Of a DNA stretch of 64,000 nucleotides, positions 456 through 33,153 are shown one piece after another. The notes below the pieces were generated by a model. The model was not told the DNA's origin. It saw only the letters and a program-made list of their open reading frames with translations, and did not search any database. Position 1 is the stretch's first letter; each line of letters opens with the position of its first letter. A program made the position numbers and the translations under genes. The stretch spans positions 744,001 through 808,000 of the forward strand of contig NZ_SMYL01000001.1 of assembly GCF_004358105.1 (NCBI RefSeq). The letters are read 5' to 3'. Source of the DNA: Sapientia aquatica (lineage in GTDB: Bacteria > Pseudomonadota > Gammaproteobacteria > Burkholderiales > Burkholderiaceae_D).

Positions 456-567
456 CTGAACAATCAAGTTGGCTAATTCCGAGTAAAATATTTTAAAACC
501 CGGCAATTTTCCGGGCGCATTGTTTTTTGTGGTTGCAAAAGACGCAATGAGTGTCTAAGGAGTTTTT

Positions 568-2442
568 GTGAATAATATGTTTTCTAAAGCAGCAATTTAT
601 GTCGTTATCGCGATGGTGCTGTTCATGGTGTTTAAGCAGTTTGACGGCAAAGGATTAAATTCCGGCGGATCGACAGTTGCTTATTCTGACTTCTTAGAGC
701 AAATCAAAGCTAAGCAATTACGTGAAGTGACGATCGAAGATCGAAATATCACTGCAGTTACCGTTGAGGGTAACAAGATTAAAACTACCGGTACTTACTT
801 AGATCGTGGCTTGATCGGTGATTTAGTCGCTAACGGCATCAAGTTCGACGTCAAGCAAGCCGAAGAGCCATCTTTATTAGTCCAATTATTGATGTCTTGG
901 GGGCCAATGTTGCTCCTGATCGGTGTTTGGGTATTCTTCATGCGCCAAATGCAAGGCGGCGGCAAGGGTGGGGCGTTTTCCTTCGGAAAGTCCAAAGCCC
1001 GGATGCTTGATGACACAAATAATAATGTTAGTTTCGCTGATGTCGCTGGTTGCGATGAGGCTAAAGAAGAAGTCCAAGAAATCGTCGAATTTTTGCGCGA
1101 CCCAACTAAATTCCAAAAATTAGGCGGACGTATTCCTCGTGGTGTTTTGATGGTTGGCCCTCCAGGTACGGGTAAAACACTGTTGGCGCGTGCAATTGCT
1201 GGCGAAGCTAAGGTGCCTTTCTTCACAATTTCCGGTTCTGACTTTGTCGAAATGTTCGTTGGCGTTGGTGCATCGCGGGTTCGCGACATGTTTGAGAACG
1301 CTAAAAAACATGCACCATGTATTATTTTTATCGACGAGATTGACGCTGTCGGTCGTCATCGCGGTGCCGGTATGGGTGGCGGAAACGACGAACGCGAACA
1401 AACGTTGAATCAAATGTTGGTTGAGATGGATGGCTTTGAAGCCAATTCAGGCGTCATCGTCATTGCGGCAACCAACCGCGCCGACGTGTTAGACAAAGCC
1501 TTGTTGCGCCCAGGTCGTTTTGACCGTCAAGTTACCGTTGGATTGCCAGACATTCGTGGTCGTGAGCAGATTTTGAATGTTCATATGCGCAAAGTGCCGA
1601 TTGCGCCCGATGTTAAAGCCGATATTTTGGCTCGTGGCACGCCGGGTTTCTCAGGTGCGGATTTGGCCAATTTGGTAAATGAATCTGCTTTATTCGCAGC
1701 GCGCCGTAACAAGCGCTTGGTCGAAATGCAGGATTTTGAAGACGCCAAAGATAAGATTTACATGGGTCCGGAACGGAAATCGATGGTTATGCGTGAAGAC
1801 GAGCGTCGTAACACCGCGTACCATGAATCCGGCCATGCCGTTGTAGCAAGCTTGTTGCCGAAGGCTGATCCGGTGCATAAAGTGACAATCATGCCGCGCG
1901 GTCAAGCATTAGGTTTAACTTGGCAACTTCCAGAGCACGATCAAATTAGTGGCTACAAAGATAAAATGCTCGGTGAAATCACCATTTTATTTGGTGGTCG
2001 AATTGCGGAAGAAATTTTTGTCGGTCAAATGTCAACTGGCGCGTCGAACGATTTCGCTCGTGCCACCAAGTTAGCACGCGCAATGGTGACGCGTTTCGGG
2101 ATGTCCGAAAAATTGGGTGTGATGGTGTACGAAGACAGTCAACAAGAAGGCTATTTTGGCGGCGCCTCTAAGACAATTTCTGAGGCAACTCAACAAACCG
2201 TCGACGCTGAAATTCGCCGTATTTTAGACACCCAATATGCTCAGTCCCGTCAATTGCTGGAAGAAAATCGGGATAAGGTCGAAGCGATGACCAAAGCGTT
2301 GCTGGACTGGGAAACAATCGATGCCGATCAAATTGGTGACATTATGCAAGGGTTGGAACCACGTCCACCAAAGATCAGTGGATCGATCAGAAAACCAAGT
2401 TCTGGCGATGGGATTGCTCCAAGCGTGACCGCAACCGTCTAG
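568..2442 (+). CDS. ftsH: ATP-dependent zinc metalloprotease FtsH
   Basis: FtsH is the inner-membrane AAA+ protease that degrades unassembled membrane proteins and short-lived cytosolic regulators. The 624-residue protein has the full family layout: a membrane helix at about 7-24, a periplasmic domain, a second helix at about 104-124, Walker A GPPGTGKT (197-204), Walker B IIFIDEID (252-259), the second region of homology around 304-320, and the zinc-protease motif HESGH (419-423). I chose the GTG at 568 because AAGGAG (557-562) lies five bases upstream. The in-frame ATG at 577 would be too far from it. A strong terminator follows, so ftsH probably ends its own transcript. Confidence 0.98.
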
Positions 2443-29265: not shown

Positions 29266-29342
29266 CTGCCCTTAGCTCAACTGGATAGAGCAATGCCCTT
29301 CTAAGGCATAGGTTGCTGGTTCGATTCCAGCAGGGCAGGCCA
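29266..29342 (+). tRNA. tRNA-Arg (anticodon TCT)
   Basis: A full cloverleaf can be drawn. The acceptor stem CTGCCCT/AGGGCAG is perfect, the D stem is GCTC/GAGC, the anticodon stem ATGCC/GGCAT encloses CTTCTAA with anticodon TCT, and the T stem GCTGG/CCAGC encloses TTCGATT. The discriminator is G and CCA is encoded. It would read AGA codons. Length is 77 bases. Confidence 0.96.
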
Positions 29343-30450: not shown

Positions 30451-32014
30451 TTTGCAGGCCAGTTAAGGTATTAATTAGTGCGCTGGCGTTGGGCGTGCCT
30501 AAACCAGTCGGAACGTCATATCCTTTTTTGGTCACGCACACCGCGCAAGTGCCATCGTTACCCGTAGCAACGTCATAAAAGTCAGCGGCGTAGGTGGCAG
30601 CGGTCGAAGCAATTTGCGTGTAAAGCGCGACATGCGGATCACCCAGCATGCCCTTGCCTGCCTGAACCCGCATTGCGTTGGCGATGGCTGCTAGGCCGGC
30701 CCACTGTGGCGTGGCCAGACTAGTGCCGCCGGCAATCACCCAAGATACTTGGCAGAAGCTGCAAGTCGTTTGGTTGGGAATCACAGCAGTCATCTGGCCG
30801 GAATTCGGATCGGCATTAAAGGCCACGTCGGCGACTGCGCGGAAACCATAGTTTTGCATCCCTGCTGACTTCGTGGTCTGATAGGCAGGTGTCGGCTCAA
30901 ACGCGCTGATACCGCCGCCGGTGCTGGACCAAGCAACTTCGGAACGTGCACCGGTTCCGCTGTAATTGAGTGTGGTACCGCCCACCGCCATTACGTTTGG
31001 CGAAACCGCAGGCCAGCTGACTGCCGCCCCACTGTCGCCCGTGGCAGCAAAATACGTCATGTTTGGTGCTTGGAAATAGCTGTCGGCACCCAAAACGTAG
31101 CTGCCTTCATTGCCAGCAAAACTCATCGACACAACGCCAGGACCCATCTTGTTAGCTAGCTGAATTGCACCGGTCATGCCGCCAAATGTGGCGTTTGGTG
31201 CTTCGATCAATACGATACGTGCCAAGGGCGCCATGGCATGCGCCCACTGCACATCCAGCGCAGTTTCGACCGCCCACTTAGCATCGTAGGCTGGCGCTGT
31301 GGCGCTCATCGTACCGTTAGCACCACTGTAGATTTTATAGAAATCACAACCATTTTTCGATGGTGCAGAAAGTGGAAGACTGGCATTTGCTGCCAATGTG
31401 ACGCTGTTACATGCGGGAAGACCGAATAACTGGCTAAAAGCTCCTAATTCGCCAGCGATCATCTGGTCGTCAAAGGAATCGATAATATAAATTGTCTGCC
31501 CTGCTCCGTACTGCGCGAGCTGAGCCGCCGACAAATTGGCATAGCTGGCAGGAAGCGCCGGCAATCCGTAGGCTGCGCGAATTTGGGCCGGACGGTAATA
31601 CACGGTTGTCGCTGCTGTGCTCGCCGATGGTGACATGGTCACAGTTTCACCAGCAACCAGCTTGGATACCGCAAGGTGGCTCGTGGAGTTCCGGCGAACC
31701 GCTTCGGGAATCAATTTGACTTGCGGCGCTTCATGGGCTGAACTGGACGACCCGTCTGCATCGATTGCGCTCGGCGTATCAGGCAGAACAGGGGCGAGAT
31801 GGTATGTTGGCTCGAATGTCGCTCCAGCTGCCTGCGCCGCAGTTGCACCACCGTCGAACACTAATGTTGAGCTCGTTATTGCAGCGGGTGCCGTGCTGGT
31901 CGGAGCCGATGCCATGTCAGTTTTGCCGCCGCATGCCGATAGCAAACAGGCTGTCCCGACCGCAGTAACCAGCAATTTGAGAGAAATGGGGAGAGGTTGA
32001 ATCGAGCGTTGCAT
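29405..32014 (-). CDS. S53 (sedolisin-type) serine-carboxyl peptidase lipoprotein with Ig-like repeats
   Basis: An 869-residue exported protease. The N-terminus is a lipoprotein signal (LLSAC, lipid-modified Cys28). The peptidase domain spans about 140-535 and has the full sedolisin set: Glu250 and Asp254 (WAVETALDVQWAHAMAP), oxyanion Asp327 (AATGDSGAAVSWPA) and nucleophile Ser432 (GGTSLATPQWAGL). The C-terminal third is four tandem Ig-like repeats. Only about 110 residues of low-complexity sequence lie between Cys28 and the catalytic domain, so I see no canonical S53 propeptide. The start is the ATG at 32014, with AAGGA seven bases upstream; the TTG two codons earlier is less likely. A c-di-GMP-I riboswitch sits in the leader. 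Confidence 0.93.
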   Translation of the reverse strand: MQRSIQPLPISLKLLVTAVGTACLLSACGGKTDMASAPTSTAPAAITSSTLVFDGGATAAQAAGATFEPTYHLAPVLPDTPSAIDADGSSSSAHEAPQVKLIPEAVRRNSTSHLAVSKLVAGETVTMSPSASTAATTVYYRPAQIRAAYGLPALPASYANLSAAQLAQYGAGQTIYIIDSFDDQMIAGELGAFSQLFGLPACNSVTLAANASLPLSAPSKNGCDFYKIYSGANGTMSATAPAYDAKWAVETALDVQWAHAMAPLARIVLIEAPNATFGGMTGAIQLANKMGPGVVSMSFAGNEGSYVLGADSYFQAPNMTYFAATGDSGAAVSWPAVSPNVMAVGGTTLNYSGTGARSEVAWSSTGGGISAFEPTPAYQTTKSAGMQNYGFRAVADVAFNADPNSGQMTAVIPNQTTCSFCQVSWVIAGGTSLATPQWAGLAAIANAMRVQAGKGMLGDPHVALYTQIASTAATYAADFYDVATGNDGTCAVCVTKKGYDVPTGLGTPNASALINTLTGLQMASAPSVSGGYSISAIAGKAMTFTATVTDANAYTMSLQGAPNGMTINSKAVVTWNSPVAGTYTVNVVATDSKTGLTGQGVYTVFVATATVPVISSGTVAVTAGQALTFPVVVSDANPTSLTISGNPSGMTLSSAGLVSWAKPVAGTYSVTITAKDMINGLSAVGVYSVIVNKTAGPVVIGGNVAAVASTPVNFTVTTTDTNPCTWSLAGAPTGMSISANGAISWNSPIAGSYSVNVVAKDSKTGLVGTGVVGFTVTQAGGPIVTATGLTGKVGTPLSGTIQINDSSSNISGVGIGGAPAGMSVNASGGMSTFSVKWSAPVAGTYNLQVSATDAAGKSTAASIIVSITN

Positions 32015-32087
32015 GGGCAAGTCCTTAAAGTCAGCCTGGACGTGCTCGATGCGACGTGCGTGGTCTGCCCGATAAAGGACAGAACAG

Positions 32088-32170
32088 TACTATCGGCAAC
32101 CCCGCTACCATTGCGCCATGCGCTGTAGGCCGGAGGCTTTGCGTCCCCGCCTTTCGACGGGTTTGCCCAG
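32088..32170 (-). ncRNA. cyclic di-GMP-I (GEMM-I) riboswitch
   Basis: On the minus strand the RNA reads GGGCAAACC, a stem capped by a GAAA tetraloop, GGGACGCAAAGCCUCCGGCC, a variable hairpin (GCGC-AUG-GCGC), then GGUAGCGGGGUUGCCGAU. These blocks match the c-di-GMP-I aptamer in order and spacing, including the conserved ligand-contact regions around the first GGGCAAACC, the GGACGCAAAGCC core and the AGCGGGGUU segment. It lies about 75 bases before the S53 protease start, with nothing else between. The remaining bases up to the PilZ gene (about 32230-32417) hold nothing I can name. Confidence 0.95.
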
Positions 32171-32202
32171 GAGATTGTGTTTAAAACAATCACTTGGAAA
32201 CC

Positions 32203-32229
32203 AATATAGTTTCCACATGGAAATGTTAA
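32203..32229 (-). promoter_or_regulatory. possible promoter for the riboswitch-S53 transcript
   Basis: On the minus strand TTAACA (32229-32224) and TATATT (32208-32203) are separated by 15 bases, a short spacer. An inverted repeat GGAAAC / GTTTCC overlaps this site on the plus strand and could be an operator. The transcript would start about 30 bases before the aptamer. Confidence 0.35.
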
Positions 32230-33063: not shown

Positions 33064-33153
33064 TGGCGGAAGGTGTGAGATTCGAACTCACGAAGGCTTT
33101 AACACCTCGCCAGTTTTCAAGACTGGTGCATTCAACCGCTCTGCCAACCTTCC
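33064..33153 (-). tRNA. tRNA-Ser (anticodon TGA)
   Basis: A 90-base class II tRNA. The acceptor stem is GGAAGGT/ACCTTCC, the anticodon stem CCAGT/ACTGG encloses CTTGAAA with anticodon TGA, a long variable arm follows, the T loop is TTCGAAT, and CCA is encoded. It would read UCA and related serine codons. Confidence 0.96.

Follow-up and report, generated by a model that had tools for sequence, protein, structure and literature searches.

Class I c-di-GMP riboswitches are described, in the passages on their targets in two reviews (PMC6366702, PMC7266159), mainly in connection with motility, chemotaxis, adherence and biofilm formation. Among the matches listed in the literature search, the closest system to the locus reported here is ZmpI/PPEP-1 (CD630_28300) of C. 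difficile, which the relevant passages of PMC6366702 present as a secreted protease whose transcript bears a class I riboswitch and which is repressed by c-di-GMP, and cleaves and releases surface proteins. The same passages state that the functional class I switches of C. difficile terminate transcription and that the two class I switches of V. cholerae act in opposite directions with no termination, and a passage of PMC7266159 describes rare GEMM variants that sense cyclic AMP-GMP.

The window analysed here, a 64-kb stretch of the genome of Sapientia aquatica, contains a protease gene with a class I c-di-GMP riboswitch and, as we predict, negative control, which makes it similar to PPEP-1/ZmpI. 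However, PPEP-1/ZmpI is a zinc metalloprotease of a Gram-positive bacterium in which functional class I switches act by termination (PMC6366702, same passages), whereas the protein in the window is an S53 serine peptidase lipoprotein, its control is predicted to be translational, and it belongs to a different bacterial family. Compared with the RF01051 family in general, the locus is alike in its full-length match, its ligand-contact G and the surface-type protein gene downstream, but differs in the S53/S8 targets of such riboswitches and in a platform with a block that complements the ribosome-binding site as well as a strand of the aptamer.

An earlier note on this DNA regarded such a protease as a non-standard member of the c-di-GMP regulon in Burkholderiales, and this holds with a qualification: class I control of a surface-acting protease has a precedent in PPEP-1/ZmpI (PMC6366702, as above), but among the matches listed in our literature search there was no description of an S53/S8 protease regulon or of a platform with two complements, an absence that is weak evidence, as subscription literature lay mostly outside the search. 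Among the matches listed for sedolisin or S53 together with c-di-GMP riboswitches, there was only PMC9144310, in whose matching part S53 is an entry in a transposon table; where "c-di-GMP riboswitch" and "serine protease" met, in the matching passages of PMC13194489, the two were unrelated; and the main text of PMC3766115 contains "GEMM" and neither "protease" nor "peptidase".

The aptamer and the lipoprotein gene behind it

The Rfam cmscan of the 64-kb window returned three matches above their gathering scores, of which two were tRNAs and the best was RF01051 (c-di-GMP-I, or GEMM-I; 82.1 bits against a gathering score of 35, E 1.2e-14), the sole c-di-GMP-I match above the cut-off. The match, computed directly, covers positions 1-87 of the 87 in the model and ends 77 nt upstream of the ATG of the protease gene. 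A GEMM-I aptamer in the minus-strand leader of this gene was what the earlier note had read from its conserved blocks, and the covariance-model search with RF01051 that it proposed returned the full model rather than an empty result. The span it gave, 32014-32170, includes the expression platform and the greater part of the aptamer, which begins 7 nt further upstream.

Model position 11, which we take to be the ligand-contact base by the Vc2 G20 numbering, is G in the window's aptamer, not the A of GEMM-Ib, and the G is invariant in the leader alignment (41/41 S53 leaders). Structural work has established that this base decides the ligand, G giving c-di-GMP and A cyclic AMP-GMP (GEMM-Ib), so by this background rule c-di-GMP rather than cyclic AMP-GMP is the expected ligand, and the leader aptamer presumably binds it. 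The host genome has 38 GGDEF matches, and therefore c-di-GMP is probably made in the host.

Table 1. Features of the riboswitch-protease locus and its surroundings; coordinates are positions in the window, except for the protein row.
Feature	Position	Strand	Basis or remark
S53 (sedolisin-like) lipoprotein gene, 869 aa	29405..32014	-	ORF with ATG at 32014
Layout of the S53 protein	residues 1-28; ~140-520; ~530-869		signal and lipobox; S53 domain; Ig-like (He_PIG) repeats
c-di-GMP-I (GEMM-I) aptamer, full length	32092..32177	-	Rfam RF01051
Aptamer 5' strand CCUGGGC (switching strand, holds the ligand-contact G)	32165..32171	-	pairs with 32041-32035
Switching block GUCCAGG	32035..32041	-	partners: aptamer 5' strand or, via GUCC, Shine-Dalgarno GGAC (32024-32021)
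Shine-Dalgarno region AAGGAC, end 6 nt 5' of ATG	32021..32026	-	sequence; script-chosen start
UUGCCCA, overlapping the A of ATG; complement of aptamer UGGGCAA (32169-32163)	32014..32020	-	rival ON-type pairing; MFE, duplex energy
Inverted repeat TGGAAACTATATTGGTTTCCA	32195..32215	-	~17 nt 5' of the aptamer; terminator-like in scan
Gene immediately upstream of the riboswitch, 137 aa	32418..32831	-	sub-threshold PilZ match
tRNA-Arg (tct)	29266..29342	+	flanks the protease gene region
tRNA-Ser (tga)	33064..33153	-	flanks the protease gene region

The 869-aa protein has a lipobox LSAC (Cys28) and three Ig-like He_PIG stretches (Pfam), and in a phmmer search against the PDB query residues 307-511 matched sedolisin, with 6m9c and its relatives as the chains hit (E 6.6e-10). 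No S53 family was returned by Pfam (E up to 0.001) or NCBIfam (E up to 1), so the S53 assignment stands on the PDB match and on four residues, E250, D254, D327 and S432, which are invariant among five sequences (the window's protein and four Chloroflexi relatives out of five recovered) and which we take to be the S53 catalytic residues Glu, Asp, oxyanion Asp and Ser. The motifs GGTS, GDSG and ExxxD are also conserved in this alignment. The protein is thus like sedolisin/pseudomonalisin in sequence and motifs but differs from it as a lipoprotein with C-terminal Ig-like repeats and with no Pfam match to the pro-domain Pro-kuma_activ (E up to 0.001). An N-terminal pro-domain is typical of S53, though not required; about 110 residues separate the lipobox from the catalytic domain. 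When genome contigs were searched with the protein, just five relatives were recovered, all from Chloroflexi, and plasmid searches gave one short match (Acinetobacter) plus distant actinobacterial S53 proteins. The strand, the S53 target gene and the Ig-like repeats were all as the earlier note had them; of its "secreted sedolisin" the homology stands, but the product is better termed a predicted lipoprotein, probably a protease anchored at the surface.

Upstream of the riboswitch, the 137-aa product has a PilZ match below threshold (E 0.0037; 18.0 against 22.5 bits) and the PilZ-like motifs RIHHR and NLSFSG, and is possibly a c-di-GMP-binding protein adjoining a c-di-GMP riboswitch. A tblastn search with this protein recovered, among the aptamer loci it covered, this protein alone. 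The inverted repeat 5' of the aptamer is perhaps a regulator site, or chance.

Aptamers and proteases in the host family and order

The host genome (4.43 Mb, 58 contigs) contains three RF01051 matches. The second aptamer stands before a paralogous S53 lipoprotein, 48% identical over residues 11-868, and the third (L145, 4615-5098; C3 of the host genome) before a 130-aa lipoprotein-like ORF. By eye, this third locus lies beside a divergent polysaccharide-export-like ORF and near glycosyltransferase-like ORFs, and its platform, CCCTCGCTC...GGAGCGAG, is the same as that of the S53 paralogue.

Within the host family, RF01051 was found in 104 of 294 genomes and in 25 of 44 genera. The matches listed in this survey amount to 143 aptamer loci; the match in G042 (32.6 bits) is under the family cut-off, and four loci (L042, L059, L082, L083) have less than 600 nt of downstream sequence. 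Of the 143 aptamers, 41 are followed directly by a gene for a protein related to the S53 protein of the window and 31 by an S8-type (subtilase) gene, so that a protease of one of these two kinds lies behind 72 of 143. Both families belong, we take it, to clan SB, and a clan SB protease lies behind an aptamer in 61 of the 104 aptamer-bearing genomes; the linkage with S53 in particular occurs in 40 of the 294 family genomes, the window's own counted. The S8 loci are L056, L088, L107 and 28 others; in the stretch examined all three S8 motifs are present in 27 of the 31, and Pfam confirmed Peptidase_S8 for the single S8 representative scanned. Besides S8, the ten Pfam-scanned representatives of non-S53 targets (taken as the longest ORF beginning at most 450 nt from the aptamer) comprised SLT transglycosylase, PKD, response regulator, cadherin-like, Spherulin4, DUF4402, MauG-type and PAS/GAF proteins; one representative matched nothing. 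At three loci, before a response regulator (L125), a cadherin-like protein (L131) and an S8-type protease (L164), the best Rfam match was RF03167 (c-di-GMP-I-GGC), whose cut-off was exceeded by L164 alone.

Seen from the protease side, relatives of the S53 protein (E up to 1e-40) number 50 genes in 49 of the 294 genomes, after two of 52 rows were joined as second pieces of the same frame, and an aptamer is present at 41 of the 50, counting as linked the gene of G049, whose two parts lie on different contigs. The aptamer is missing from nine S53 genes, those of eight genomes of one genus (g41; L151-L158) and of G099. A search upstream of the eight g41 genes found nothing of the c-di-GMP-I family, even with matches allowed up to E 1, and in other g41 genomes the aptamer stands in front of S8-type genes; control of the g41 S53 genes has apparently been lost or changed. 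In a draw of 399 genomes from the order, an S53 gene (E up to 1e-40) was found in seven; outside the host family it comes with the aptamer in G526, G497 and G419, which belong to two other families, and without it in G349 and G570 (3 of 5 linked). Because the pairing of aptamer and protease is kept in related bacteria, c-di-GMP probably turns the protease off at the RNA level.

An alternative helix in the leaders

The 41 S53 leaders were aligned from the aptamer to the start codon (alignment A1); the starts were picked by script and three were corrected (L015, L027, L040). About 20 nt 5' of the start codon, 34 of the 41 carry a block G(C/U)CCUC and the other seven have related letters. The block complements the aptamer 5' strand GAGGGC, the strand with the ligand-contact G. 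In the resulting helix of seven pairs (A1 columns 7-13 x 159-166), 96.9% of the 286 cells over the 41 leaders can pair, against 30-59% for slid control helices. Two-sided changes occur at three of the seven pairs, a count equalled by 2 of 500 shuffles, and in five cells, which 0 of 500 shuffles reached; the covariation score was likewise equalled by 0/500, whereas the count of additional pair types stands out less (reached by 30/500). RNAalifold predicted six of these pairs without being given them.

At the two inner variable pairs, compensating changes are found in three genera: in the window's own leader (L001, g1), L025 (g33) and L026 (g38), where the partners are CCUGGGC/GUCCAGG, CAGGGC/GUCCUG and UGGGC/GCCCA, respectively. 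Six of the 41 leaders (L007, L025, L026, L041, L042, L128) lack one or more of the seven pairs, and L041 lacks three. By eye, the full 6-bp complement is also present in two leaders of other families that were unused in the discovery of the helix, L159 and L161, and with one mismatch in L160 (the script start was wrong for L161 and missing for L159). Taken alone, the energy of the block helix in the window is unremarkable (p 0.126 against shuffles, 0.024 when position is included; the duplex shuffles took in 17 of the 41 leaders), and ranking the leader's own aptamer strand on its platform against the strands of other leaders carried no information, since the strands are mostly similar. The block is thus conserved and covarying by direct computation, and the alternative helix in the S53 leaders is well supported.

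The platform of the other copies in the genus, GCCCUCGCUC...GGAGCGAG, is absent from the window, which suggested that the window's copy had lost the family platform and might act with the opposite sign. This reading was dropped because the duplex search, together with a platform alignment made blind to the aptamer, placed GUCCAGG of the window, like GUCCUG of L025, in the columns of the common block, with compensating changes.

For the S8 loci, 27 of 31 leaders were aligned (L034, L123, L124 and L137 left out). Their block (GCAGUCCUGUU-like) complements the 3' strand of the aptamer in 93.0% of 243 cells over the 27 leaders; because the aptamer side is invariant there, this helix offers complementarity and no covariation. 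The duplex energy reached p <=0.05 against shuffles in 18 of 30 leaders (30 of the 31 loci shuffled). The same block also forms a hairpin with the Shine-Dalgarno sequence (90.3% of 216 cells paired), with nine two-sided changes, reached by 0 of 500 shuffles, and four of its pairs were recovered unprompted. From this arrangement the S8 leaders are predicted to follow the same OFF logic as the S53 leaders via the other (3') aptamer strand. By eye, two S8 leaders (L056, L064) have T-runs after a hairpin-like stretch that could be terminators.

Direction of control and its meaning

Because the block is complementary to a strand of the ligand pocket and, alternatively, to the Shine-Dalgarno sequence, a translational OFF switch is predicted. 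The earlier note had described neither this block nor a direction of control. When c-di-GMP is scarce, the aptamer's CCUGGGC would pair with GUCCAGG, the block would be kept off the ribosome-binding site and the protease would be made. Bound c-di-GMP would lock CCUGGGC in the ligand pocket and release the block, whose GUCC could then pair with the GGAC of the Shine-Dalgarno region, so that translation of the S53 protease would drop at high c-di-GMP. Surface proteins might accordingly be released or remodelled as cells leave the sessile state. We put the probability that this is a functional class I c-di-GMP riboswitch repressing translation of a surface-anchored S53 serine protease at high c-di-GMP at about 0.68; its OFF direction and its biological role are what we infer from the pairings and the folding calculations.

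In a model that contains no ligand-side tertiary contacts, locking the aptamer made the ribosome site costlier to open than enforcing the block helix did in 36 of 41 leaders, and cheaper in 2 (threshold 0.5 kcal/mol), the mean difference being +3.96 kcal/mol over the 41 leaders and the values for the window 8.71 against 3.93. Relative to the unconstrained ensemble, the locked aptamer raised the cost in 29 of 41 leaders and lowered it in 3, and in the window it brought the GUCC:GGAC pairing to a probability of 0.98-0.99. The block helix itself has a probability of 0.004 in the free ensemble of the window's leader, enforcing it costs 3.4 kcal/mol, and this leader folds no better than its shuffles (z -0.31). 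Masking the block freed the ribosome site to an extent among the best 25% of masked positions in 24 of 41 leaders and among the best 10% in 12; it ranked 3 of 58 in the window's leader, was weak in the g6 clade and failed in the paralogue L002 (rank 49 of 61). A control with shuffled aptamers, which took in 22 of the 41 S53 leaders, gave a modest effect, 17 of 22 having the expected sign (mean z -0.92). Overall, the alternative helix is well supported and the OFF direction for the S53 leaders moderately supported. A single fixed Shine-Dalgarno hairpin common to all S53 leaders was unsupported, with 55% of cells paired.

The strongest competitor, to which we give a smaller but appreciable share of the probability, is an ON switch in which, without ligand, UGGGCAA of the aptamer pairs with UUGCCCA across the spacer and the start codon, so that c-di-GMP would free the start and the protease would rise. 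This start-codon pairing is present in the MFE of the 188-nt window leader, its duplex energy (-10.1 kcal/mol) is close to that of the block duplex (-10.7 kcal/mol), the opposed switches of V. cholerae show both signs within class I, and in L160, a leader of another family, CCCAGG stands immediately 5' of the ATG and complements that leader's own aptamer strand, a possible ON-type element. However, among the 22 leaders covered, the stretch that best complements the aptamer strand is found 11-30 nt 5' of the start codon rather than on it, and it is the block at that upstream site that the leaders share and that covaries. With 36 nt of coding sequence added the start-codon pairing has a probability of about 0.01, yet this is not below that of the block helix in the same ensemble.

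Less probable again, and in our view unlikely, is control of transcription by intrinsic or Rho-dependent termination instead of translation, for which the terminating class I switches of C. difficile (PMC6366702, passages cited above) and the T-runs in the two S8 leaders would speak. The terminator scan of the window found nothing between the aptamer and the ATG, the one site reported (32215-32195) being upstream of the aptamer, with shuffles giving 0.7 sites on average, and the block is located at the ribosome-binding site. That the aptamer senses another dinucleotide, as rare variants sense cyclic AMP-GMP, or is a decayed relic seems very improbable to us, as the diagnostic base is G and not A, the full model is matched at 82.1 bits, and the arrangement is kept by the paralogue and by 39 other genomes of the family.

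Taken singly, riboswitch and protease are each unexceptional representatives of a known family; the apparent novelty lies in the conserved pairing of the two, in the wider regulon of proteases and in the OFF platform predicted here. More tentatively, at somewhat less than even odds, half of the class I c-di-GMP riboswitches of the family (72/143) may control surface or secreted clan SB proteases (S53, S8) via two separately built translational OFF platforms, in each of which the ribosome-binding site and a strand of the aptamer would compete for one block. If true, this would be an RNA-level programme of surface proteolysis that fires as c-di-GMP falls, an RNA counterpart to LapD/LapG, where the same kind of task is done with a protein receptor. 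The analysis supplies precise bases for testing the switch mechanism and names proteases whose substrates may include adhesins or matrix proteins. A protease regulon across genera and paralogues would, in one more group of bacteria, make surface proteolysis a direct part of the decision between sessile and motile life.
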